IMG/VR virus record: IMGVR_UViG_3300041809_002462 | Span: 1-23,257 of that record | From: a virus | Length of the DNA: 23,257 bases | Reading direction: 5' to 3' (one strand) | Part shown: piece after piece, positions 6,240-23,257 of the stretch | How positions within the stretch are numbered: position 1 is the first letter of the stretch | Layout: every line of letters begins with the position of its first letter | The notes under the pieces: generated by a model | What the model saw: the letters and a program-made list of their open reading frames with translations, nothing else | What the model was told of the DNA's origin: nothing | The model's database searches: none | Translations under genes and position numbers: made by a program

Positions 6240-6249
6240 CGGGTCAACC

Positions 6250-6284
6250 ACCGATTCGGCGACTACGTATCCGAGTGAATCGGT
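6250..6284. terminator. Bulged inverted repeat between convergent genes
   Basis: ACCGATTCGG (6250-6259) pairs with CCGA-GTG-AATCGGT (6271-6284), giving a 10-bp stem with a 3-base bulge and an 11-base loop. It lies between the end of the + strand tail gene (6239) and the end of the antisense PIN-like gene (6317), where a bidirectional terminator would be expected. There is no strong T run on either side, so it could equally be a protein-binding site or a scar of insertion. Confidence 0.35.
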
Positions 6285-6316
6285 ACCTTCTATTGAAGCC
6301 TTGCCACGGCGCGACA

Positions 6317-7249
6317 TCAGCGGAAGAGGCCTTCTCGCCACTCGCGGTACGACCTGATCGACGCAGGGCGGGCGCTGCCCTTATTGAGGATCTTTAGAGC
6401 CCGGCGCTGGCGTTTATCCGCCGTAACGAATACGTCGCATGATGGCAAATACGTTGCGGACCACAAGTCGAGGTGGCCGGGGTTGTTTCCATGACCGAAA
6501 CCCTGTCGTTTAACAGACCGTTGGTAGATTGCGCACCCATAGCCCAACAGAAACATTCGCCAATAGGGCGTCGAGTTCAGCAGAGACCATAATTCACTCC
6601 GAAGTAGGGGCAAACCAACTGCACGCGCATAGATCGGGTTGACCACTTCATAAAGAAAGTCGCTGTTCTGCGCGTAGTGGCGCAGGAGGGCACCCATCGA
6701 CGGTGGGCGCTCTTCATTTTCAAAAACCACCTTCAACTCTTCGCGCAGGCCTTCGGTGAAGTTCCGCAGGACATCCTCTCGCTCTTTGTTAAATTCCAGC
6801 GCCACGCGCTGCGCCGCGTCATCAGCGAGCTCTGGTCTGTTAATCGCTATCCACGATCCTTCTGCGTCGTTTCCGGTATTGAGTGTCAAAGTCTGGTCGC
6901 GCCGAGCGTATCCCTGAGACACAGCAATGACCAGCTGATTTGGCGTCGCGAGCGGGCGGTTATCCTTCCCGACTGTCTTGATCAGGCGCAGCAGCCCGAG
7001 GCGCCGCCCCCGGTTTTCTGTCGCTGCTATTTCGGCGATTGCCAAAGCGGTCGGAATGATGGTCCCGGAGCGTAGCTTCTCCCGGATCAGGTCCAGGCCG
7101 GGATCATCTATGAGGTTGTTCCACGCACTTGTGTCGAGGATTTGCTTATTAGGGATTTCGGACGCCATGACGGTCCGGGCCGCGGCGCGGACGCTCGGCT
7201 TTTCAGGGCGCGAAGCCTCGTGGGCAATCGACAGATGCTCGACCTCCAT
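6317..7249 (-). CDS. PIN-like nuclease domain protein (antisense cargo gene)
   Basis: This 310-residue protein is antisense to the tail genes. Acidic residues lie in PIN-domain-like contexts: D39 in a QILDTSAW strand, E73 in an ALAIAEIA helix, and D261, D272 and D278 in a HLDLWSATY...CDVFVTAD segment. PIN domains are metal-dependent ribonucleases, often toxins or effectors. About 185 residues separate the two halves, far more than in small VapC-type toxins, so it belongs to an expanded family or has an inserted helical domain. The start at 7249 follows GGAG about 9 bases away; Met28 (7168) is an alternative. No antitoxin-sized partner is visible. GC is visibly lower than in neighbours (30 of 60 at 6541-6600). 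Activity is inferred. Confidence 0.6.
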   Translation of the reverse strand: MEVEHLSIAHEASRPEKPSVRAAARTVMASEIPNKQILDTSAWNNLIDDPGLDLIREKLRSGTIIPTALAIAEIAATENRGRRLGLLRLIKTVGKDNRPLATPNQLVIAVSQGYARRDQTLTLNTGNDAEGSWIAINRPELADDAAQRVALEFNKEREDVLRNFTEGLREELKVVFENEERPPSMGALLRHYAQNSDFLYEVVNPIYARAVGLPLLRSELWSLLNSTPYWRMFLLGYGCAIYQRSVKRQGFGHGNNPGHLDLWSATYLPSCDVFVTADKRQRRALKILNKGSARPASIRSYREWREGLFR

Positions 7250-7306
7250 TCACCTATTCTCCGCCTAAGCAAGACAGGTCGCGCAGCGTCCTCACCAAGG
7301 TGTCAT

Positions 7307-11428: not shown

Positions 11429-11845
11429 GTGCCAGGCAATCTCGTACAATCCGCCCCCAACGGGGTGATGCCGGCGTCCCTGTGTACCGCGTTCACGGAA
11501 CTGCGCGAGTATGCGCAGCTTCAGAACCAGTATCACGACGGCACGATCCAGCGGTCGCAGCTTGCGCAAACCTCGCGCCGGACGTTCCGGCTCGGCAAAC
11601 GCTTGAGCGCATCGGTGCTCTCGGCGCTGTACAGCTTCTGGGTATCGCAGAACGCCGGCATGACCCCGTTCGCCTTCTACAATCCGTTCGATGTGGCGTC
11701 GGGCCAGCAGATTGGCAGCAACTACGATCCCACCGGCAACAACACGCAGGGGCGCGTGACGGTGGTGTTTCGCGGCAACTGGGCGCAGGTCACCGACATC
11801 GCGCGAACGAACTTGCAGGGGTTGGAACTGGTCGAGGTGGCGTAA
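11429..11845 (+). CDS. Minor tail protein, gpM/DUF2460-like
   Basis: This 138-residue protein starts with GTG 11429, seven bases after the tape measure gene stop; ATG 11468 (Met14) is an alternative. Its pattern resembles small tail-tip proteins such as lambda gpM and the DUF2460 group: SRRTFRLGKRLSASVLSALYSFWVSQ, then FAFYNPFDV, a beta-rich part with RVTVVFRGNWAQ, and an acidic end. The N-terminal domain of the large gene at 13480 seems to be a paralogous version (a comparable 'LNWAETNQLKAFWESLQG' helix then a Tyr/Thr-rich loop). It is likely part of the tail tip below the tape measure protein. The antisense cargo unit follows directly. Confidence 0.55.
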   Translation: MPGNLVQSAPNGVMPASLCTAFTELREYAQLQNQYHDGTIQRSQLAQTSRRTFRLGKRLSASVLSALYSFWVSQNAGMTPFAFYNPFDVASGQQIGSNYDPTGNNTQGRVTVVFRGNWAQVTDIARTNLQGLELVEVA

Positions 11846-11897
11846 ATGCCCGGCCAGAGGGATTGTACGAATGTTTGGTCCAGGCACCGCATCGTTG

Positions 11898-12404
11898 TCA
11901 GAATGGGTTTCTCTTGAGCAACAAACTTCGCCAGTGCTCCTGGGCCAAGTCCATCAATTCCACCTCGGCATCGATCTCGGGCTGGTATGGCCATTCGTCG
12001 TTAGGATTGTCATCCACTCCATGTTTCACCAGCGCCTTCTCTACCAGCCGAATAGGCACCCGATAGCCTTGGGTATGACCTCCGAAAATCAAATGGCTGC
12101 CGTAGCTGAATTCGTTCCAGCCGTCCCACCCATAGACGTACACGAAGCGGAGGCCTTTGTATGACCGCGACAAATCCCGGAAGTGCTTGTGACCGTCCTC
12201 ACTGCACGCTTGAAAGATGTACTTCTTTTCCAAAAGATTCGGACCGAGACGTGTTGCGCGTTCGGAAAACAGTTTCTGCGCCTCTCCCACCAGCATGTCT
12301 GGCCTGAACACGCAGGATGGTCGAGCGCTGGCGAGACGCCTAAAGCGCAATACGTCGGAGGTGTTGCCAGCGACCACCAATCGGGCGTTGCACCAATCCG
12401 CCAT
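11898..12404 (-). CDS. Api92/YubB (DUF1281)-like protein, second gene of antisense cargo unit
   Basis: This 168-residue protein starts at ATG 12404, four bases after the stop of the PLD-like gene, so the two form one antisense unit. The frame is open 18 codons further upstream, inside the PLD gene, but the start chosen gives the family-typical beginning MADWCNARLVVAGN. Such an 'xxWCxN' start, a ferredoxin-like alpha/beta pattern, and a GWDGWNEFSYGSHLIFGG segment recall the DUF1281/YubB and Api92-like ferredoxin-domain family found on plasmids and phages. No biochemical function is established that I know of. It may modulate its PLD-like partner; that is inference. Confidence in the family is moderate. 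Confidence 0.5.
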   Translation of the reverse strand: MADWCNARLVVAGNTSDVLRFRRLASARPSCVFRPDMLVGEAQKLFSERATRLGPNLLEKKYIFQACSEDGHKHFRDLSRSYKGLRFVYVYGWDGWNEFSYGSHLIFGGHTQGYRVPIRLVEKALVKHGVDDNPNDEWPYQPEIDAEVELMDLAQEHWRSLLLKRNPF

Positions 12405-12408
12405 CTCG

Positions 12409-13392
12409 TTAACTTCGGGAGACGCGCCCAGCCGCTGTCCACAAGCGGAGAAACGCATCGGCGCTGTCAGCGTCCCGAACGGGTTTGGTCCGTCGCGCTA
12501 GTTCGGTTTTGAGCACGGCCTTTGCGGTCCTTTGAAATTTATTCCAGTCCATTGTTGCGCCACGTTTGGGAAGCTCGAGGTGGAACACGTAGCGCTCTTT
12601 GCCGGACTTCCGGTCTCGAACGTAGCTGTCGATAAGAAGGAGTCGCCCTGGAGGATGGACTACCACTGTATCGTCGGTGTGTCTAACCACCTGAATGATC
12701 CAATCGCCAAGTTCGAGCTCGTTTGCCATGCGAGGTCTGGAAGGCCAGAAGAAGTTTTCCATCTTCGAGCCCTCGGTATCCTTTACCAGCTTCTTAGCCT
12801 TTGCCTCACCTCGCCTGTAACGAGGAACTTCAGCTTCTGGGATCGAAAATCCCTGGCGCAGAGCAACGATCCAGAGCTTGGCGTGCTTTGCTCGGGACTG
12901 GCGACTACCAGTGGCGTCCGAGCTGGCAAAGTGGGGGGGCACATAAGCGCGCTTGCACTCATCGAGGTATATCGGGCCGACAGGTTCCGTGCAAATGCGG
13001 TTGATGAACTCCCGAGCTCGCCGGATGGCTACGGTGTCGTTAGTCAGAATTGCCGCCTCGTCCAAAAGCCGATAAGAGCGATTGGAGACGTTCGCTGATC
13101 CGGCGATGACGAAATGATCAGCTACTATCAGTTTGGAGTGCAGATGGCGCCGCGTAAAGACCTTGACGCCGCGCCTAATCAGTTTTTCAATCTCGGATGG
13201 GTCTGTGGCCCCTCCGCGGACCGTCGCCAGGCTCATGTCGACGACGAGGTTGTCGCCCCGGCTAAGCGGAAGCAGCTTCGCGCCGCCTCGTCCGATGTAG
13301 GCGATTGCCGCATCGACGTGGCGAGCAGACTTCACTCGGGTAATGAGCGTCTGCCAAAGCCGCTCGTTCGATAGCAGTGTGGCTGAACTCAT
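12409..13392 (-). CDS. Single-HKD phospholipase D-superfamily protein (antisense cargo)
   Basis: This 327-residue protein has one clear PLD catalytic motif: H85-x-K87-x4-D92 followed by G98-S99-A-N101, with E112 downstream. One HKD motif per chain is typical of PLD nucleases that dimerise, such as Nuc and BfiI, so endonuclease activity is more likely than lipase activity. Residues 1-140 cover the PLD domain; residues about 160-327 form a C-terminal domain I do not recognise, with mixed charges and strands. The start at 13392 (MSSATLLSNERLW) is preferred because the longer frame would run into the start of the tail-tip gene. A possible promoter lies in 13393-13479 on the minus strand (TTGCAC, 17 bases, TACACT), but the match is weak. 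It could be a defence nuclease. Confidence 0.7.
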   Translation of the reverse strand: MSSATLLSNERLWQTLITRVKSARHVDAAIAYIGRGGAKLLPLSRGDNLVVDMSLATVRGGATDPSEIEKLIRRGVKVFTRRHLHSKLIVADHFVIAGSANVSNRSYRLLDEAAILTNDTVAIRRAREFINRICTEPVGPIYLDECKRAYVPPHFASSDATGSRQSRAKHAKLWIVALRQGFSIPEAEVPRYRRGEAKAKKLVKDTEGSKMENFFWPSRPRMANELELGDWIIQVVRHTDDTVVVHPPGRLLLIDSYVRDRKSGKERYVFHLELPKRGATMDWNKFQRTAKAVLKTELARRTKPVRDADSADAFLRLWTAAGRVSRS

Positions 13393-13479
13393 CCGCAGAA
13401 CGGCGAGTGTAATACACAGCGTTAGTTGGTGCAACGTTAAAAAGGGAATAAGGGCCTCCGGCACTCCGATTTCGCAACC

Positions 13480-16400
13480 ATGTCCGACACTATCGGCCGC
13501 ATCGCCGTCCCCACGGCAATCAACTCCGGCCAGACATTCCCGCTCATCACGCGGTACCCGTTCGGCTTTTCCGTCGAGCGCCCCGTGATCGTGCATCGCT
13601 TCGGCTCACTCGACGCCAAGCAGGAGCAGCGGTACTACGTCGGGATCGGCCCGCGCAAGTTTCAGTTCAAGCACCCGAACCTCAACTGGGCCGAAACCAA
13701 CCAGCTCAAGGCGTTCTGGGAGTCGCTGCAGGGTCCGTGCCAGGCGTTCACCTACACGGCACCCAATCCCGATGGAACCACTACCAGCGTGCTGGTCACC
13801 TTTGAGCAGGCGCCGATCTCGTTCGAGTACTTGCGCAGCGCCGTCCAGGTCGGACTGAACTTCATCGAGGTAGTCGATCCGACCCAGGCGCCCAGCTACA
13901 CGGTCAACGCCACGTGCCTGCGCTTCCCCTCGAGCGCGCTATGCAGCGCACTGCTTTCCGAAGTGCAGCAGATTGTCCCGCTGGTCCACATCCGTGTGCG
14001 CGAGGCCGCCGTGCCGGACATCTATGTCTCCGACCGGCGCGTCACGGTGGGCGGCCAACTCTACCTGCCGCGCCTGATCGGGATCGGCGAGACCGGCTCC
14101 GACGTGCTGATCTCCCAGGACATCAAAGGCACCTCCGATAACGTCCGCTTCACGTTCGGCAACGGCGACCGCGTGATGACGCAACTCGCCAACGACACGG
14201 ACCTGAAGTACGCCGAGATCGACCTGTGCCTCTTCCACATCAACTCCGGGATTCTGCTGCAACTCTGGAAAGGCGTGATCCAGAACTTCACGAGCGACGG
14301 CACGCCGCTCTTCCCGGTGACGTGCTCCGACGGGTTCTTCCAGATCATGAACCAGTACCCGGAGCGGCAGGTCAGCCGCCAGTGCTGGAAGACCTACAAC
14401 GACAGCGTGAACTGCCCGTGGGCCACCAAGGGCGCGAGCGCCGCCGCAGTGACGGCGGCCGGCGGCGATCCCACGAGATGCGACTATTACCTGGAATCGG
14501 CGAACGGCTGCCAGGTGCACGGCATGGCGCCCTACTTTGGCGGCCAGCAGGCCGACCCGCAGGGCGTGATCATCAAGGATGATTCAACCGGCTTCCTAGG
14601 CTTCGGCCGAAACATCGTTACCGCGACGTCGATCATCTCCGATACGATCTGGGGCCTGGCGCTGGCGGAAATCTGGTGCAATTCGGGCGGCAATCCGCTC
14701 TTTGCGTTCATGGCCGCCGCGATGATGGTGGGTTACCGCGACGAGTCGGGCTACGCGGACTCGCTCGGCATTCTCGGCGCCGGACCGCTGGGCGGGTTCA
14801 CCCCATCGGTGGTCGTTACGAACGCGGATGGCTACAAGTACGTGGTGGCTCCCACCGTCGATGGGTACCTCTGGCAAGGATTCAAGGTCGACGGCAATCT
14901 CAACATCGCCCAGGACCAGCCTGGCATGGGTCTGCGGTTCATCCCCGGCAGCGATCCGGCGAACCCGGCCAGCGACTATTTCTCGATGGGGCAAGGGTCA
15001 CCGCAAGTCTGGGAGTCGAATGTTTATGCCGCCGGCACGGCCGCTTGCGAAATCCGCATCGTCAAATCCACCACGATTCAACCGAGCACGCCCGACCAGC
15101 ACCAGATGACCGTCCCCATCGACTACGGCATGTGGGGCTGGGCCTGGGACCAGTACGGCAACCGCATCGCGGTCAAGGGACTCATCAATCCGTTCTGGAT
15201 CGCCGTCAACATGTTGCTGCGCGCGATGGGTCTCTACGGCGACCCGTCCACCGACTCGAATCCAGCCGGCGGCGCCGGCCCGTGTTCGTCCGCCCAACTC
15301 GCCACATTCGTGCTGCCCTCGTTGGTGGTGGGCGATGGAAGCGGCGCGGCAGAGATCGCCGCGGCTCAGGTGACGCCGATTTTGGGCATGACCTCGCCGA
15401 TCGTGAACTACGCGCTAACACCGGCTGGGCAGGCGCTGACCGCTCCGCAAATCAACCTGAACCCGGACGGCAGTTACTCGTTCTCGTATTGGAGCAGCCC
15501 GCCACCACCGCCCCCGGAGGGAAGCGGGGTGCAGACCACAATGCCTATCGCGCAGGCGCTCTCACTTGGGTATGTCACGGTGACCAGCGTTCAAGGCACC
15601 GAGACGCAGTTCCAGTTTCAGGGAGTCATCAGCAGCCAAAAGCCGTTTCGCGACTGGTTGACCGAGGTATTGAACTGCTGTTTGGGATTCTACACCTGGG
15701 AATTCGGGCGGCTGAAACTCGGCTGCCGGATCAACGCGAGCGCGGTCGATGCTTACACGCTCGCCAACTCCCTGTTCCAGAGCCTGCGCCTGGCGCCGAT
15801 CCAGGCCGGGTTCGAGCACTTGGTGCTTTCCTTCGCCGACGTCGCCTATCAATACCAGGCGAACACGGCAGAGTACTGCGACAAGAGCCACGCAGCCTAC
15901 TACGGCCGCGCCGGATCTCCGCTGACGAGCCAGATGCACTCGGTGGGGATGTCCACGCTGAGCCAGGCGTTGCGCGTGGCGGTTACTCGGACGAGGGAGG
16001 AACTCGGGGGAGTTACGACGTGGGAGTGGCGGAACGCGCGCACGGCCGTCTGGCAGACCACGCTCCTGGGCCTGGGAAATGAAGTCGGGCAAGTGGTCTC
16101 GATGACGCACCCGGACGTGCCGGGCGTGCGTGGGACGTGCAACGCGACCGGCGACACGGCGACGTGGGAGAGCGGCGATCCGTGGACCTATGCGGGGACG
16201 GCGGAAGGCGACACGGGGCTGATCGACAAAGTGATCGTGATTGGCGGCGCACAGCTGACGATCACGGCCGTGGCGAGCGACGGATCGACGATCACGACCT
16301 CGCCCGCGCCGCCGAGCGGGACCGGCCTCGCGTTCCAGGTCATCACGATGTGCTTCCGGATTCAGCGATGGAGCCTGAAGAAGGACTGGTCGGTGCAGAT

Positions 16401-18111
16401 CGAGGGGCAGACCGTCACCGACTCGATGTACGACCTGGACGTGGGCCCCAAACCGATGGACGTGTTGCCTTCGCCACTGCCGGGCCTGTACTACCCGATT
16501 CCGCTGGGGCCGGCGTGGGCGCCCTACCAAGTGCAAGCGGCGGCAAACGACGCGCTGTTTCCCGGCGAGTGGACCTTCGACTCCAATCAGTCTTACGCGC
16601 AGATGGCCGACGGCAGCATGCTCGCTAATCTCCTGGTGACCGGAAAGCTGCCAGTGAACGAGTTCAGCTCTACCGGGGCTGGCGCCCCCGGAATTGGCTC
16701 GGTCGCGCAGTCTGCGGCCAGTGGATCGCTGCCGGCCAATGTGACGCTGCGCGTGGCTATCTGCGCGATCGACTCGAACGGGCTTCCTTCCGCCCCGTCC
16801 AGTATCGCCATCGTGGGGACCTCGGCCTCTGGAACCGACTCGTTCACGTTGGAAGACATCACCTGGCCGGCTGTTTCGGGCCTGGTTTCCTATGTGCTGT
16901 TCGTCGCGACGCAGGACGATTTGATCTGCGCGCAGGCAACAAGCGCGCTGACAGCGGGCGCAAACAACACCTACACGCCCGGCTCGATCACATTCGCGGG
17001 CCCGCTGGTGCGCTCGACGTGGGCGCTGCCGTCTCCCTATGTCCGCAAGGTCCGGCTGAAGGCTAAGCACGAGATTCACGGCGGAATCATCGGCGGGGCC
17101 ATCGACAGCGTGTCGGCCGACACGCTGGTCACCGGCTACTTGCAAGGCGCGCCGCCATCCTCCAATCCATCGTGGACGCCGGTGGGTCGTATCATCTCGA
17201 TCATCGGCAGGCCGGAGAGCGCCGCGCCTTATTTCAGCGCGAAGGTTACGTCGTGGAGCCAGTCGACCGGTGCCATCGGCGTCACGCCCGACCCTAACGG
17301 GATCGTGCAGGAGGGCGACTGCTTCGTTCTGCGCCTCAACGCCGACGCCTCGAACGCGGCGAACCTCACCTCCATCACCGACTCCGGATTGCAGAGCATC
17401 GCCTATCCCGCCGGGCTCACGCCCGGAGCGGAAGTCGGTAACCTGATCCGGGTCATCCAAGGCGCCTCGCGCGGCACGCCGCCGAGAAAGATCACCGCGA
17501 ACACGGCAACCAGAGTTACCTGGGATCTTCCGATGCCCATCAATCCAGGCGACGTATGGATCATCGAGGAGCCCACGTGGCCCTATTCCTGCGACACGAC
17601 CTCGATCGACAACGGCAACCCGTTGGCGGAGATGACGATCAACATGCCCACCGGCAATTTCGTCGACGAGACGCTCATCATCGCCGGCTTCACGGTGGAC
17701 GTGAATGGCAACGAGTCGCCCGACGGCGACGCGCCGCTCCGCGAGGACTGGATCTTTGGCGCGGAAGGACTGTCGAAAGTCGCCGGCCTCGTGTTCCAGA
17801 TGCAAGGAACGCTGGGCATCGAGTCGAACGCGGCCCAGCCACTCTATTTGAACAGCGCGGTCACCGCCGGCGACGTGAAAGGCTATGTGCAGGATGCCCC
17901 GACCGGATCCGGGATCACGTTCACGATATATGTGGGCGGCACGACCTGGCTGAGTCTAACCATTCCGGCTGGCGCGACCTCGGTGGTCGCAACGCCGTCT
18001 CAGATCGCCGCGCTCGCCCAGATCCCGGCGAACACGGCGGTCTCGATCGGTATCACGGCGGTCGGGACAAGCTTTCCGGGCGCGGACCTATCGGTGTTCA
18101 TCTACTCGTGA
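13480..18111 (+). CDS. Giant tail-tip fusion protein: gpM-, gpL- and gpJ-like parts (gene A)
   Basis: This 1543-residue protein appears to fuse several lambda-type tail-tip subunits. Residues about 1-140 resemble gpM/DUF2460 proteins. Residues about 160-360 resemble the DUF2163/BR0599 and gpL type (VHIRVREAAVPDIYVSDRRVTVGGQ region is shared style), with C302, C312, C334 and C344 spaced like the iron-sulfur cysteines of lambda gpL. A six-proline run (674-679) separates this from a gpJ/Phage-tail_3-like part near 710-960 (KPFRDWLTEVLNCCLGFYTW). Later parts are beta-rich, with a fibronectin-type-III-like region near 1080-1180, and the last 90 residues form a putative exposed domain. A diverged copy of its last 328 bases lies downstream at 18791-19117. 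No good ribosome binding site precedes ATG 13480. Subunit boundaries are estimated. Confidence 0.7.
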   Translation: MSDTIGRIAVPTAINSGQTFPLITRYPFGFSVERPVIVHRFGSLDAKQEQRYYVGIGPRKFQFKHPNLNWAETNQLKAFWESLQGPCQAFTYTAPNPDGTTTSVLVTFEQAPISFEYLRSAVQVGLNFIEVVDPTQAPSYTVNATCLRFPSSALCSALLSEVQQIVPLVHIRVREAAVPDIYVSDRRVTVGGQLYLPRLIGIGETGSDVLISQDIKGTSDNVRFTFGNGDRVMTQLANDTDLKYAEIDLCLFHINSGILLQLWKGVIQNFTSDGTPLFPVTCSDGFFQIMNQYPERQVSRQCWKTYNDSVNCPWATKGASAAAVTAAGGDPTRCDYYLESANGCQVHGMAPYFGGQQADPQGVIIKDDSTGFLGFGRNIVTATSIISDTIWGLALAEIWCNSGGNPLFAFMAAAMMVGYRDESGYADSLGILGAGPLGGFTPSVVVTNADGYKYVVAPTVDGYLWQGFKVDGNLNIAQDQPGMGLRFIPGSDPANPASDYFSMGQGSPQVWESNVYAAGTAACEIRIVKSTTIQPSTPDQHQMTVPIDYGMWGWAWDQYGNRIAVKGLINPFWIAVNMLLRAMGLYGDPSTDSNPAGGAGPCSSAQLATFVLPSLVVGDGSGAAEIAAAQVTPILGMTSPIVNYALTPAGQALTAPQINLNPDGSYSFSYWSSPPPPPPEGSGVQTTMPIAQALSLGYVTVTSVQGTETQFQFQGVISSQKPFRDWLTEVLNCCLGFYTWEFGRLKLGCRINASAVDAYTLANSLFQSLRLAPIQAGFEHLVLSFADVAYQYQANTAEYCDKSHAAYYGRAGSPLTSQMHSVGMSTLSQALRVAVTRTREELGGVTTWEWRNARTAVWQTTLLGLGNEVGQVVSMTHPDVPGVRGTCNATGDTATWESGDPWTYAGTAEGDTGLIDKVIVIGGAQLTITAVASDGSTITTSPAPPSGTGLAFQVITMCFRIQRWSLKKDWSVQIEGQTVTDSMYDLDVGPKPMDVLPSPLPGLYYPIPLGPAWAPYQVQAAANDALFPGEWTFDSNQSYAQMADGSMLANLLVTGKLPVNEFSSTGAGAPGIGSVAQSAASGSLPANVTLRVAICAIDSNGLPSAPSSIAIVGTSASGTDSFTLEDITWPAVSGLVSYVLFVATQDDLICAQATSALTAGANNTYTPGSITFAGPLVRSTWALPSPYVRKVRLKAKHEIHGGIIGGAIDSVSADTLVTGYLQGAPPSSNPSWTPVGRIISIIGRPESAAPYFSAKVTSWSQSTGAIGVTPDPNGIVQEGDCFVLRLNADASNAANLTSITDSGLQSIAYPAGLTPGAEVGNLIRVIQGASRGTPPRKITANTATRVTWDLPMPINPGDVWIIEEPTWPYSCDTTSIDNGNPLAEMTINMPTGNFVDETLIIAGFTVDVNGNESPDGDAPLREDWIFGAEGLSKVAGLVFQMQGTLGIESNAAQPLYLNSAVTAGDVKGYVQDAPTGSGITFTIYVGGTTWLSLTIPAGATSVVATPSQIAALAQIPANTAVSIGITAVGTSFPGADLSVFIYS
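17784..18111 (+). repeat. 3' end of gene A, duplicated downstream
   Basis: These last 328 bases of gene A match 18791-19117 at about 80% by eye, with a single 1-base gap. Most differences are at third codon positions. Homology starts abruptly at CGGCCTCGT and ends at the TGA stop. Confidence 0.85.
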
Positions 18112-18192
18112 CCGGAGCATAGACCGATCAGAGCGGACCGGTTAATTTACTCGCGGCAAACACTGCGCTCCCGCCGCAGAACGCGTGCGCCG

Positions 18193-18632
18193 CTACCACG
18201 TCTCGCGCAGCTCACGCATTATTGACGTGCAGAGGTCCCCGATCGCGTGAAATGAATCATATTCCGGCGTTGCGGAGTATAAGCGTTCAAATGTCACCTC
18301 ACCGCCCACTTGAGACATTGTGTATTTTGCGGCGTCTCCGTCGCCGAAGCCATATCTAACGATGATATTCGCCGGCTGGTCGACGTAGATCGAGATGTTG
18401 CTATGAGCGCATTCGCCCCTGCAAAACACAACAGCGCGTTGTCTTCGCGCTTGGATTCAAGAGCAGGCTGGAGTCCTAAGCTCCTGTACTCCGTCAGGCC
18501 TATCTCAATCTCATCGACGATTCCTGCATAGGCGCTGAGCAGATTGTCTGGAATACTCGCGTCCGGCAACGATTCGTGCCCTTGACGCCCGGACTGTCGA
18601 GCAGCTTCGCAAACCCATTTCCTCATCAGCAT
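18193..18632 (-). pseudogene. Frameshifted small cargo gene of unknown function
   Basis: Two overlapping antisense frames together look like one gene. The upstream frame (from ATG 18632 or 18626) reads well through a stretch with SLGLQPALESKREDNALLC, then degenerates into Ser/Arg/Thr repeats. From about 18429 the -1 frame reads well (HSNISIYVDQPANIIVRYG...) to the stop at 18193-18195. The switch coincides with a run of four T on the minus strand (18423-18426). One extra T would join them into a single 146-residue protein. I do not recognise the family. It could be a decayed gene, a sequencing error in a homopolymer, or a site of programmed slippage; decay or error is likelier. It sits between gene A and the chimeric remnant. 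Confidence 0.5.
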
Positions 18633-18660
18633 CAAGGTTAGCGCAAAACGAGTTCCGGCA

Positions 18661-18789
18661 ATGGACCCAATTTGTAAGCTGCAGCCGAATCGCACGATGC
18701 ACTTGCAAGTCTTTGACGACTACGGCGCAGCAGCCGCGCTGTGGGGCGCCTCAGACACCGGCTTCACGGTGTCCAGCGTGTTTCGCGAT
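18661..18789 (+). repeat. Partial copy of gene B 5' end
   Basis: This 129-base segment is a diverged copy of 20425-20553. The 24 base differences that I counted are mostly synonymous, which suggests the copy evolved as a working gene before truncation. Confidence 0.85.
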
Positions 18790-18790
18790 T

Positions 18791-19117
18791 CGGCCTCGTC
18801 TTCCAGATGCAAGGAACGGTTGGCGTCGAATCCAACGCGGCGCAGCCTCTGTATTTGAATCACCCGGCCACCGTCGGCGACGTGAAGGGTTAGGTGCAGG
18901 CCGCCCCGACCGGCTCTGGATCACATTCACGATCTATGTGGGCACCACGGCGTGGCTGGCACTAACCATTCCGGCGGGCCAGACCGTGGTGGTCGCCACT
19001 CCGTCGCAAATCAACGCTCTGTCGCAGATCCCGGCGAACACGGCGGTCTCGGTCGGCATCACGGCAGTTGGCACTACGTTTGCGGGCGAGAACCTCTCCG
19101 TTTTCGTCTACGCGTGA
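18791..19117 (+). repeat. Partial copy of gene A 3' end
   Basis: This copy of 17784-18111 is about 80% identical and carries the stop TAG and 1-base deletion noted for the chimeric remnant. The bases after it (19118-19228) show no gene or clear structure. Confidence 0.85.
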
Positions 19118-19228
19118 TTCAAGGTCTCGGCACGTCGAGCCAAACGGGTTCGGTAACTCCTGGTCGAGCGACCGCGGACCGATACGACCATACGAGATTC
19201 CGGCAGACATATCGCAGCCTCTTGTCTA

Positions 19229-20323
19229 TCAGCGCTCTTCAAACCCGTACCTTACTAGCAAGAATCCCAACACACAGAGGAGAATTGGGGTCGCCAACAC
19301 GCACTGAAAGAATCGAGGTGTGGTCCAGTGGAAAGCAAATCCCAGGATGAACACGTGCACAACGGGGAGCAGCCCAAGCATTCCAACAATCCAGAAAATG
19401 GGTTGAATTGAAACACGTGATTTAGGCAGGCGAGCCCAGTGATAAGCATCAGGGAACCGCCTGCTCATTGCCTGATCGAGCTGTTTGTAGCGGCCCTTTG
19501 TATAGCAGACCGAAAGGATGCCGCTCAATCCGAGGATGTAGATCAAAGTCGGAAGGAGAAACTGCACGACGCCATTCTTTCCTAGAACCTCCGCCATCTT
19601 GGCTGGTTCACGCCAAACGACGGTGGCCAATCCGATCTGCAGGGCAGCAAACCAGCCGGCGGCTGTCAACTCGTAGTCCCTGTATCGGCGGAGTTCGTGG
19701 CAGGCCTGCGTATACTGCGAGCTGACGTCAACGCTTTCACCGAGAACGAGAGGTGACGATTGGTTCCATAGGGCCTCGAAGGCCTTGGCAAAGACACCGA
19801 AGTTTTTCTCGTCATCAGTTCGCCGAATGAATAGGGCGGGACGGTTTTCTTTGAAGGTATCGTAGGGCAACAACTCCACGAGTACGAATTGATCGGGCAC
19901 TAAGATTCCCTGAAGCGTTGGAGCCGAATCATAGGCATTGACACGAAGAAAGCCAGCGTACCTGGAGTCTCGCGCCAGCCCGAGCCACTGGAGAGCCGCC
20001 TCTCGAACTTGCCTGACGGCTCCGTGAGGAGTGTCTCGATGTTCAACAAGACCGCGTCCGACTGCTTCAACCGCGGCGCGATCAAGGTTCGGGTCCAACG
20101 TAAGCACACGAAGAGGGCGCGCGCCATTAGGCTCCGTGGGCAGCGCCTTCTGGAGGTCCTCGAAGCTACACTTCGACATGATTGTGACGTACAACGCCCT
20201 GTCATATCGACCAGCAATTGTGTCACGCCAAATTTGCTGGGACGTCGCGTCGAGGCGGTGCTCAGCGACCAGTGGAGACGTAGCCACTTGCTGAACCGCT
20301 GGCGCATCGGCTGCGGAGGACAT
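19229..20323 (-). CDS. Four-helix membrane protein with a possible PLD-like N-terminal domain (antisense cargo)
   Basis: This 364-residue protein starts at ATG 20323, chosen for its very strong ribosome binding site; the frame is open 28 codons further without one. Residues about 28-190 are soluble: a LRVLTLDPNLDRAAVEAVGRGL segment and a PALFIRRTDDEKNFGVFAKAFEALW segment recall the degenerate PLD-like/DUF5919 domains of bacterial conflict proteins. No HKD motif is present, so it would be a sensor or binding domain. Four hydrophobic segments follow at about 218-237, 252-273, 306-331 and 339-358. Sensor-plus-membrane-pore architecture is common in abortive infection effectors, and superinfection exclusion is also possible. 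Both roles are inferred. It lies alone, divergent from gene B. Confidence 0.55.
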   Translation of the reverse strand: MSSAADAPAVQQVATSPLVAEHRLDATSQQIWRDTIAGRYDRALYVTIMSKCSFEDLQKALPTEPNGARPLRVLTLDPNLDRAAVEAVGRGLVEHRDTPHGAVRQVREAALQWLGLARDSRYAGFLRVNAYDSAPTLQGILVPDQFVLVELLPYDTFKENRPALFIRRTDDEKNFGVFAKAFEALWNQSSPLVLGESVDVSSQYTQACHELRRYRDYELTAAGWFAALQIGLATVVWREPAKMAEVLGKNGVVQFLLPTLIYILGLSGILSVCYTKGRYKQLDQAMSRRFPDAYHWARLPKSRVSIQPIFWIVGMLGLLPVVHVFILGFAFHWTTPRFFQCVLATPILLCVLGFLLVRYGFEER

Positions 20324-20340
20324 TTGTCGAACTCCTCCCC
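20321..20340 (-). promoter_or_regulatory. Strong ribosome binding site of the membrane cargo gene
   Basis: On the minus strand GGAGGAG (complement of 20332-20338) lies 8 bases before ATG 20323. It is among the best Shine-Dalgarno matches in the window and fixes the start of the antisense gene. Confidence 0.7.
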
Positions 20341-20424
20341 GCATCTTATCAAATGCCGTCCTCGGTCTACGCAATCTGTCACCGAACGCCCGACTACGGC
20401 ACCTCACAGGGTTAATCCTCGACC

Positions 20425-23257
20425 ATGGACCAGATCTACAAACTGCAGCCGGATCGCACGATGCACTTGCAGGGCTTTGACGACTATGGTGCAGCGGCTG
20501 CCCTGTGGGGCGCTTCGGACACCGGGTTCACCGTCTCCGGTGTATTCCGCGACCTTGCCGACTTCGCCGTGCTGGTGCTGTTCCAGAAGGACGATCCGTT
20601 CGGGCACCCGCTCTTCTCCTACCTGCCGGACGGCGATCTCACGGGCCTCGTTCTCGATTTCGACGTCACATGGCAGGGCATTCAGAGCTGGGAGTCGCTC
20701 AAGAGCGCGTGGACCGACTGGAACGCGCTCGATTACTCCATCGCCGGGGTCGGCTACAACGACGTGAAGTGGATGGGCACGCCGGGGATCACGGTTACGT
20801 GCAACATTACGGGCCGGGCTGGCGCGTCGGCCGCTTACCTCCTGAACCTGAACAACCCGCAGCCGGGCGACAAAGTCACGCTGTGGTACCAGAACCTTTC
20901 GTTCGTCAGCCCGTCGATCGCCGCCGCATCGAACCCGACGGCCGATGAGGCGATGTGGTGGCAGGGAAATGCCGCTTACAATCACTGGGTCACCATCGGG
21001 TCGGTCACTTATTCCTGCCTTGAAGGCGCTCTGAACAGCGCGGGCGTAGCGAACAACGTCGCCGCCCAGATCAACGCGTCCGATCCGAACTGCACCGCCA
21101 TTGTCGGCGGCACCTCCGGCAACGAGATCTTGGTCACGCTGAAGTCGACGGTCGCCGGGCCAGTTGCGGTCTCCAGCTCCGACGGATCGGCCGCCGACAC
21201 ACTTACGCAAACTACCGCCGCATCCATCTTGCAGTCGATCGCGCAGCAGATCAACGCCGTCAATTGGACCGAGAACGGTCCCGCCGTGCTCGCCGCCGCC
21301 GTGACGGGTCCGAATCAACTGACGATCAGCGCCGCGCCGGGCGCCGACGGCAACATGGCCGAGCTCTATCAGACCGACAACACCAGCGCCAGCCGGCTCT
21401 ATTTCACGGCGGCGAACTGGAGACTGTCCGGCGGCTCTTCGGACAACGTTTCCTGGCACGTGCACATCGATTTCACCGCGCTCGGCTGGAGCGATGTGGA
21501 CAAGGTCTGGTGGACCATCGCCCCAGCGCTGCCCAACAGCCAGGCATACCAGTCGACCGAGTGGGAGATGGTCGTCACCAACTGGGCGGTAACCAGCAAC
21601 CCGGCGAGTAAGCGGGCGCTCAAGGTGGCCGGGCCAGGAGCGGTCCGGATCGAAGAAGACAGTACGTGGGTGAGCACTTCCGGATACTGGGAGCAAGCCC
21701 CCGGCAACGACCCCGTGAATGGCGTGTTCGCCTTCTGGAGCCAGGGACGGGCGATCCGCGCGGCGGCGTCCGGTGCCGGCGCCACCGTCGAGACGCACTG
21801 CCAGCACACGCACGACATCTACGTCGGCACGCGCCTCGATACCAACTGCGGAATCGTCTCCGCCGCGCTCGACGGCGGGTCTCCGGTCACGCTCGACTGT
21901 TACTACCCCACGGCCACCACATCGCAGACGCGGCGCCTTCTGTTCTCCGGCGTCGCCGCTGGCCAGCACCAGGTGGTGATCACGCTCTCGGGCAACAAGA
22001 ACGCGTCGAGCCAGGGCTGGTATTTCTATTTCGACTTCCTCGAATGCGCCGTGAAGAGCGACGTGCCGGATCCGGCCGCGACGACTACCGCCGTGGCGGT
22101 CGCGACCGATTTCGACACGGATAACACCTACAAGCTGTCCCCACAGAGGCTGGTGTGGAACATTCAGAAGCTCGGGCTGCTGGGCGAGATCGATCACTAC
22201 TGCGGCGTCTTCTGGTGGAAACAATCGGTGGCGTCAAATCCGTCCTACCCACAGTGCACGGTGACGTTCTCCGGAACTTGGAACGATCAGGATGTTGTCT
22301 GGCTGCATATTGGCGGTTCGGCAATCGGCAAAACGGTGTTCGGCGGGCAAGACAGCAGCAGCACCATTGCCCGGCACTTCGCCAACTTCATCAACGCGAT
22401 CTTCGACGGCGTCTGGGCCACGTCCTCCGGCAGCGTCCTCACGATCACCTCCCATTCCTTCGGCAGTGTGTGGCAGTATCACGTCTCGACGGTGCTTGGT
22501 GCCAACACCGGATCCGGCCAAGCCGTGGTGACCGCTGACCTCCAGGGCGGCACCTATGGCACGACCTGGGTGATAGATCCAACCCAGACTCCGGTGCTCA
22601 ACCGGGCGTTCCGCGACTGGACCACGGATTTCTTCAACCAGCTCAAGGCGAGCAACATGAGCGCCGTCTGCTCGTTCTCGCAGGAACTGGTCCAGCCGCC
22701 AGACAATCCCGCCGGTGCTGCGGTGTGGGTTCAGCGCTTCCTCGACGGCACGGAGGTCCAGACCGCTACCGGGTTCGGGACGCTGAACAGTTCGCAAATT
22801 GCCTTCAGTTCCGGACCGCAGAACTACATGGCGCAGGCGCATGCCGCGATGGCTGCACTCATGCTGGCCGCGGGGCTGACACCCAAGCTCCAGTTCGGGG
22901 AGGTCGGCTGGTGGTATCAAGCCGACGCGTCGGGAATGGCGTTCTACGACGCCGACACGCAGGCCGCAGCACAGTCGGCGCTCGGCCGCGCGCTGGCACC
23001 GTTTCACACGCCAAATGACGATCCTTCGGTCAACAGCTACGCCGACGCGAGCTTTCTCCGTACGCGCCTGTACAACTACGTGGCTGCCATCCAGAGCTAT
23101 GTGCTCTCGCAATGCCGGACGGCCATTTTCGAACTGCTATGGCCGATGGACGTGAACGACCCGGATAACTGCAAGCTGATGCGCTACGTCAACCTTCCCA
23201 CGCAGTGGACGACTCGCGCCGGCTCCGGTTTCGACACGTTTCTGATTGAGGGTTACC
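20425..23257 (+). CDS. Long tail-tip protein with glycosidase-like C-terminal region, incomplete (gene B)
   Basis: The frame is open from ATG 20425 to the window end: 944 codons, no stop. Residues 1-150 are beta-rich with many Trp, Asp and Gly (KLQPDRTMHLQGFDDYGA, then a LYFTAANWRLSGGSSDNVSW type segment near 330). Around residues 720-940 the sequence looks like an alpha/beta barrel: E826 in QFGEVGWW and E903 in AIFELLWPMD have the look of the paired catalytic acids of clan GH-A type glycosidases, on predicted strand ends. This could be a tail depolymerase, or a TIM-barrel domain like that of gene-transfer-agent tail proteins. The catalytic assignment is speculative. The first 43 codons are duplicated at 18661. 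Only AGGG 13 bases upstream serves as a possible ribosome binding site. Confidence 0.6.
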   Translation, partial: MDQIYKLQPDRTMHLQGFDDYGAAAALWGASDTGFTVSGVFRDLADFAVLVLFQKDDPFGHPLFSYLPDGDLTGLVLDFDVTWQGIQSWESLKSAWTDWNALDYSIAGVGYNDVKWMGTPGITVTCNITGRAGASAAYLLNLNNPQPGDKVTLWYQNLSFVSPSIAAASNPTADEAMWWQGNAAYNHWVTIGSVTYSCLEGALNSAGVANNVAAQINASDPNCTAIVGGTSGNEILVTLKSTVAGPVAVSSSDGSAADTLTQTTAASILQSIAQQINAVNWTENGPAVLAAAVTGPNQLTISAAPGADGNMAELYQTDNTSASRLYFTAANWRLSGGSSDNVSWHVHIDFTALGWSDVDKVWWTIAPALPNSQAYQSTEWEMVVTNWAVTSNPASKRALKVAGPGAVRIEEDSTWVSTSGYWEQAPGNDPVNGVFAFWSQGRAIRAAASGAGATVETHCQHTHDIYVGTRLDTNCGIVSAALDGGSPVTLDCYYPTATTSQTRRLLFSGVAAGQHQVVITLSGNKNASSQGWYFYFDFLECAVKSDVPDPAATTTAVAVATDFDTDNTYKLSPQRLVWNIQKLGLLGEIDHYCGVFWWKQSVASNPSYPQCTVTFSGTWNDQDVVWLHIGGSAIGKTVFGGQDSSSTIARHFANFINAIFDGVWATSSGSVLTITSHSFGSVWQYHVSTVLGANTGSGQAVVTADLQGGTYGTTWVIDPTQTPVLNRAFRDWTTDFFNQLKASNMSAVCSFSQELVQPPDNPAGAAVWVQRFLDGTEVQTATGFGTLNSSQIAFSSGPQNYMAQAHAAMAALMLAAGLTPKLQFGEVGWWYQADASGMAFYDADTQAAAQSALGRALAPFHTPNDDPSVNSYADASFLRTRLYNYVAAIQSYVLSQCRTAIFELLWPMDVNDPDNCKLMRYVNLPTQWTTRAGSGFDTFLIEGY

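Follow-up and report, generated by a model that had tools for sequence, protein, structure and literature searches.

A cargo slot flanked by conserved tail genes in a soil phage holds genes for a PLD-family protein and a predicted Api92-like protein

In a soil phage, two conserved tail genes, here called A and B, flank a cargo slot with exact borders, low-G+C cargo and near-total cargo turnover. In the window, i.e., the whole stretch of DNA analysed, which is the single IMG/VR record IMGVR_UViG_3300041809_002462 of 23,257 bases, this slot is occupied by the genes P0001 and P0002 (Table 1). On balance, we favour the explanation that both are accessory cargo in a fixed A/B slot within the tail operon of a temperate Acidobacteriota phage, and that P0001 is an anti-phage nuclease. 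A literature search, with most subscription papers lying outside it, did not find an earlier report of this slot.

Table 1. Positions of the cargo inserts, their genes and the flanking phage genes in the window
Feature	Position	Strand	Remarks
g7/g8 cargo insert	6240-7306	.	G+C 0.579
310-aa ORF in g7/g8 insert	6317-7249	minus	without Pfam match
Gene A, upstream flanking tail gene (conserved)	11429-11845	+	68 related loci
A/B cargo insert	11846-13479	.	holds P0001 and P0002; G+C 0.565; borders from closed records
P0002	11898-12404	minus	168 aa; Api92/YubB-like by fold; begins MADWCN
P0001	12409-13392	minus	327 aa; single-HKD PLD-family protein, N-terminal PLD domain
Gene B, downstream flanking tail gene (conserved)	13480-18111	+	
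First B/Y cargo insert	18112-18655	.	G+C 0.553
Hybrid remnant, start of Y joined to second B 3' end	18656-19117	+	direct repeats D1-D3, 80-83%
Second B/Y cargo insert	19118-20419	.	G+C 0.560
392-aa ORF in second B/Y insert	19229-20407	minus	without Pfam match
Gene Y, next structural gene	20425-23257	+	cut by the window end

Relatives of gene A were present at 68 loci in viral_contigs, and neither P0001 nor P0002 was detected in any of them (tblastn, 1e-3). Both borders of the gap were contained in 59 of 72 gap records, the other 13 having run off the contig and been dropped; L001 is the window again and was left out, which gave 58 A/B records in 56 loci. Six of the 58 were closed, with the stop of A touching the start of B (-4 to +1 nt), three held 153-183 nt, and 49 held at least 300 nt (inserts of about 0.6-4.7 kb, the longest 4687 nt). 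Without five near-identical copies, the numbers were 5 closed, 3 short and 44 filled, of 52. The mean G+C of the inserts was 0.555 vs 0.617 in the flanks, and 48 of the 49 inserts were lower than their flanks. Among 54 inserts with ORFs of at least 80 aa, a count that includes open gap records, these ORFs all lay on the minus strand in 27 and all on the plus strand in 23, and both strands were used in 4. At the insert ends, a weak G-poor, A/C-rich stretch precedes gene B, with no position above 0.48 bits over 45 inserts; nothing clear follows gene A, and we claim no site-specific target. In filled loci, this weak bias lies in the last 15 bases before B, e.g., 13465-13479 in the window, perhaps as an open leader for translation without Shine-Dalgarno pairing.

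Variable gaps are concentrated at particular junctions of the operon. Counted by one method throughout, gaps of at least 300 nt occurred at g7/g8 in 51 of 52 cases, at A/B in 47 of 55 and at TMP/A in 11 of 62, and at the neighbouring junctions g8/TMP, g6/g7 and tube/g6 in 1 of 63, 0 of 53 and 0 of 45, respectively (A/B vs g8/TMP: Fisher p 2e-23, with phage kinship ignored). Stacked copies such as those in L026, described below, may account for some of the TMP/A gaps. B/Y is a third variable junction, with 10 of 23 gaps measuring at least 549 nt (G+C 0.53-0.58) and 13 only 1-9 nt. In the window itself, the g7/g8 and A/B junctions hold one insert each and B/Y holds two; the G+C of these inserts is 0.553-0.579 vs 0.628-0.645 in the core genes measured. 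By eye, the start of the 310-aa ORF in the window's g7/g8 insert (LDTSAWNNLID) appears PIN-like, and the 392-aa ORF in the second B/Y insert has apparent membrane segments near the end.

The cargo differs in nearly every phage. The 84 ORFs of at least 80 aa in the A/B gaps collapsed to 67 at 80% identity and to 66 blastp families, an upper bound since a simple ORF caller was used and some ORFs are spurious; the sole merged pair consisted of two overlapping ORFs of L055. Pfam and PADLOC scans covered 65 of the 67 A/B ORFs (sets A2 and A3), and the window's own two proteins were scanned separately. The Pfam scans of A2 and A3 gave 80 and 44 families, and among the best 25 of each that were listed were a WD40 protein (L023), GmrSD, aGPT-Pplase3, ADDT, TIR (two matches), AAA, UvrD, Cap4 nuclease, HD, FRG, ankyrin and HEAT. 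The start of the L023 WD40 protein looks TIR-like by eye. PADLOC matched the A/B cargo to 112 families at E ≤ 1e-5, and the best 25 of these 112 included LmuB, NsnA, TIR-TM, PD-T4-6, PD-T4-2_A, HEC-09, GajB and mad6, as well as several candidate PDC families and generic ones. The A/B cargo includes TIR, GmrSD, Lamassu-like, Gabija-like and DNA-modification proteins, and much of it has no known family. For g7/g8, where 49 of 61 representative ORFs were scanned, PADLOC gave 39 families, with RmrA, Lit, DzbA, CapP, ThsB, restriction enzymes, PD-Lambda-2 and others among the best 25 of the 39. Ten core proteins of the window, scanned as a control, had no PADLOC match at E ≤ 0.01. The PADLOC and Pfam matches include generic domains (ankyrin, HEAT, kinase), and their counts are not the share of defence genes. 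Of 42 records, two had a PLDc_2 match, namely the window and L032; the L032 protein, which occupies the same slot as P0001, is of restriction type, has 429 aa and also matches RE_NgoFVII (E 2e-6).

One A/B insert, L013:8961-12886, encodes a protein of thymine-hypermodification families (aGPT-Pplase3, E 9e-102; ADDT), a hint that the slot accepts anti-restriction genes as well. The presence of such likely phage-helping enzymes speaks for an explanation by counter-defence or host takeover, according to which the PLD protein would serve in the phage's lytic cycle, for example by degrading host or rival DNA, and P0002 would block a host defence. We consider this improbable, because both genes oppose the late operon, as do the ORFs of 27 of the 54 inserts, because both have bacterial relatives outside recognised phages, and because most of the named cargo is of defence type.

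Hybrid remnants suggest how cargo may be gained and exchanged. L026:5996-10327 (with the same order in L028) reads TMP, A, cargo 1, a fusion of B start and TMP end, a second A, a different cargo 2 and B; the fusion joins, in frame, 46 residues of the B start to the last 78 residues of TMP, and the second A copy is 82% identical in DNA. In the window, positions 17784-20552 follow the order B, insert 1, Y start plus a second B 3' end, insert 2 and Y, where the Y-start copy (18656-18788) is 81% identical to the second copy and the B 3'-end copy (18791-19117) matches at 80-83%. In L003, 27 residues from the A end are retained immediately ahead of B. In L026 and in the window, it appears that an existing module was joined by a further one, made up of the upstream gene end, the cargo and the beginning of the downstream gene. 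From two clear cases (L026 and the window) and one weaker case (L003), we infer that cargo may be gained or exchanged through recombination within the conserved tail genes of related phages. A Mu-type transposase (PF09299) was found in 0 of 42 records; the control had no match as well, so that this count carries no weight.

The sequence-only reading, which named no strand, had described a single-HKD PLD protein followed after four bases by a protein with a MADWCN start, and these features are borne out. P0001 matches PF13091 (PLDc_2) with E 8.4e-9 and 35.8 bits vs the curated cut-off of 27, and its HKD motif is complete (H85, K87 and D92, then GSAN). The ORF coordinates place four bases (12405-12408) between the P0001 stop and the P0002 ATG, and two relatives of P0002 beginning MATWCN and MANWCN back its start. 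Third-position bias and low dN/dS identify P0001 and P0002 as genes and not chance ORFs: their differences from relatives lie mainly at third codon positions, with dN/dS of about 0.11-0.22 (dN/dS pairs 0.21/1.83 and 0.29/1.31 for the P0002, or API, family against L071 and L072, and 0.29/2.33 for the P0001, or PLD, family against L085). Both families are under purifying selection. A search for sigma-70-like promoters of the minus-strand genes, including the PLD gene, found 0, with 0.5 expected.

The PLD family extends into bacteria. Relatives of P0001 occur in 5 of 250 genomes from the order of Ca. Sulfopaludibacter and in 3 of 399 genomes from its class (G504, G519 and G555); of the 399, G001 alone gave an API-family match. 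Queries with P0001, P0002, A7, A8 and the L088 PLD protein found no close relatives in viral_contigs, and relatives of P0001 or P0002 were absent from the phages database. Plasmid matches to the N-terminal half of P0001 were found at 121 places in 78 of 72,556 records. Rhodococcus accounts for 73 of the 78, and its large plasmids commonly carry this related PLD family, e.g., L002:5947-6891. The rarity of both genes among the genomes searched, together with cargo that changes from phage to phage, would fit passengers without a selected function in the phage, acquired at a permissive junction. We regard this as very unlikely: both frames are open, the families' dN/dS is low, and uptake without selection would hardly sustain a junction filled in 49 of 58 records.

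P0001 is probably an accessory nuclease with an anti-phage role. Its family profile reaches NucT (6ehi) with E 4.9e-5 over 47 positions vs E 1.5 for the P0001 sequence alone. Like NucT, it has one HKD motif per chain; unlike NucT (162 aa), P0001 (327 aa) continues into a C-terminal half of about 175 aa, which is common to the P0001 family (alignment A6) and had no Pfam match over the cut-off. The HKD aspartate is absent in the relatives L086 and L002, so that nuclease activity may not be general across the family; in L085, the N-terminal part that would contain the HxK residues is gone, and the L089 relative appears frameshifted. P0001 also resembles DISARM DrmC and Dpd DpdK in a weak local match around the HKD motif. 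Membership in either was rejected (16.9 vs 133 bits and 25.4 vs 100 bits), and in contrast to those systems, the window's insert contains no other DISARM or Dpd gene. A predicted structure of P0001 alone (pLDDT 33.8) was set aside. The earlier idea of a nuclease acting in defence gained support from context, namely from the position of P0001 in a cargo hotspot. HKD nucleases are discussed as restriction factors in PMC12839542.

P0002 had no match in Pfam, PHROGs, NCBIfam or PADLOC. Relatives with 61-69% identity occur in three Acidobacteriota genomes of the lineage of Ca. Sulfopaludibacter (L071, L072 and, over 75 residues only, L073), and a distant one in genome G369 (L077, E 1e-13); searches of plasmids with P0002 and its L077 relative found none. 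An AlphaFold2 model built from four rows (pLDDT 70) was compared with 998 PDB chains, of which Yersinia Api92 (2ijr) was best with Z 8.9, the next entry having 6.4; the superposition covers 99 residues at 2.9 A. Foldseek alone placed the model against 2ijr at E 0.061, and 6 of 11 BFVD matches with E ≤ 0.001 were named YubB ferredoxin-like, with YubB-named models in the lead. P0002 differs from 2ijr in length (168 vs 282 aa). The assignment to DUF1281/Api92 therefore holds at the level of the modelled fold and not of a Pfam profile, as P0002, L071, L072 and L077 matched 0 Pfam families up to E 10 and the family profile gave only one unrelated match among PDB sequences (E 1.4). Hence, P0002 is Api92-like by predicted fold, without sequence-profile support, and not a Pfam-filed member. 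For a possible lead, the occurrence of YubB in plasmid leading regions, the literature search found no paper.

The proposal that the two genes form a conserved PLD plus Api92 system fails for lack of recurrence, a refutation that the sequence-only reading itself had named, as a co-occurrence search outside this phage found no second pair. None of the four API-relative loci (L071, L072, L073 and L077, with a context of only 3.2-3.5 kb for L073 and L077) has a PLD-family neighbour by tblastn and ORF reading, no API relative adjoins the PLD relatives at loci L085-L090, and the API profile matched 0 of 5 genomes with PLD relatives. The PLD profile matched one of four API genomes, G369, scoring 25 bits within a frame of 576 aa at 1.42 Mb; the API gene of that genome lies at 1.86 Mb, so this distant PLD-domain match is unlinked to it. 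Among 42 records, the pair is present in the window alone. P0001 and P0002 are thus not a conserved pair, and their pairing is known from this window only. A true two-gene system, in which the Api92-like protein would sense or adapt and the PLD protein would be the nuclease effector, would then have to be a recent or rare pairing; the shared strand, the short spacing, the single insert and the similar G+C (0.550 and 0.574) are compatible with it, and given the missing second case we consider it unlikely. The pair matters less than the slot, and a shared insert is a weak guide to partnership. Among the neighbours of PLD relatives, named by eye, one relative lies beside HsdM and another near HigA-like and AbiE-like genes.

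Relatives of P0002 and of the phage both occur in Acidobacteriota, which points to this phylum as the host. Gene A has relatives in 17 of 299 genomes of the class, one of them at 88% (G484), and the prophage relative in G484 has a filled A/B slot (1118 nt, G+C 0.554). This prophage, together with tyrosine integrases in 8 of 42 records, indicates a temperate phage. An extension of the A/B hotspot to distant Acidobacteriota prophages was rejected: 25 places were found and 20 examined (two of them, L131 and L136, incomplete), and most filled gaps of L121-L138 hold structural genes, mostly on the plus strand, with core-like G+C of 0.59-0.66 and several alike between prophages. We therefore restrict the cargo claim to the close clade together with host prophage L120.

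According to the explanation that we favour, accessory cargo with an anti-phage nuclease, P0001 would form a dimer to which, by analogy with NucT, each chain contributes one HKD motif, and its C-terminal half would pick the target. It would be expressed from the prophage, in the orientation opposite to the late operon, and would cut the DNA of competing phages much as a restriction enzyme does. P0002 would be co-acquired and not a required partner, with the four-base spacing perhaps coupling its translation to that of P0001. Cargo would be exchanged between related phages by recombination in the flanking tail genes. A wider version, which we put forward tentatively and with considerable doubt, holds that there are several dedicated docking junctions inside the head-tail operon (g7/g8, A/B and B/Y), at which modules that move from phage to phage stack in tandem and leave hybrid scars, that P0001 represents a novel kind of restriction nuclease whose C-terminal half reads the target, and that much of the unnamed cargo is undiscovered defence.

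High-turnover hotspots of ~1-5 kb between two conserved genes are described by Rousset et al. 2022 (PMC9122126) for P2 phages, P4 satellites and two further prophages. The slot resembles these antiviral hotspots in its size of ~1-5 kb, its two conserved phage flanks, its high turnover and its defence-type genes. It differs in that slots lie here at several exact stop/start junctions of a head-tail operon, in Acidobacteriota phages and with stacked hybrid remnants. By these descriptive features, the slot is best read as a variant of prophage defence hotspots, with a putative anti-phage role.

The slot is a larger and more interesting finding than the P0001/P0002 pair; relatives of this soil phage carry different cargo, often defence-like genes, between tail genes A and B in almost every case. 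The hybrid remnants make it a testable question how cargo is picked up or swapped without breaking an essential operon. For Acidobacteriota, the slot offers a simple route to new anti-phage genes: reading what lies between two conserved tail genes.
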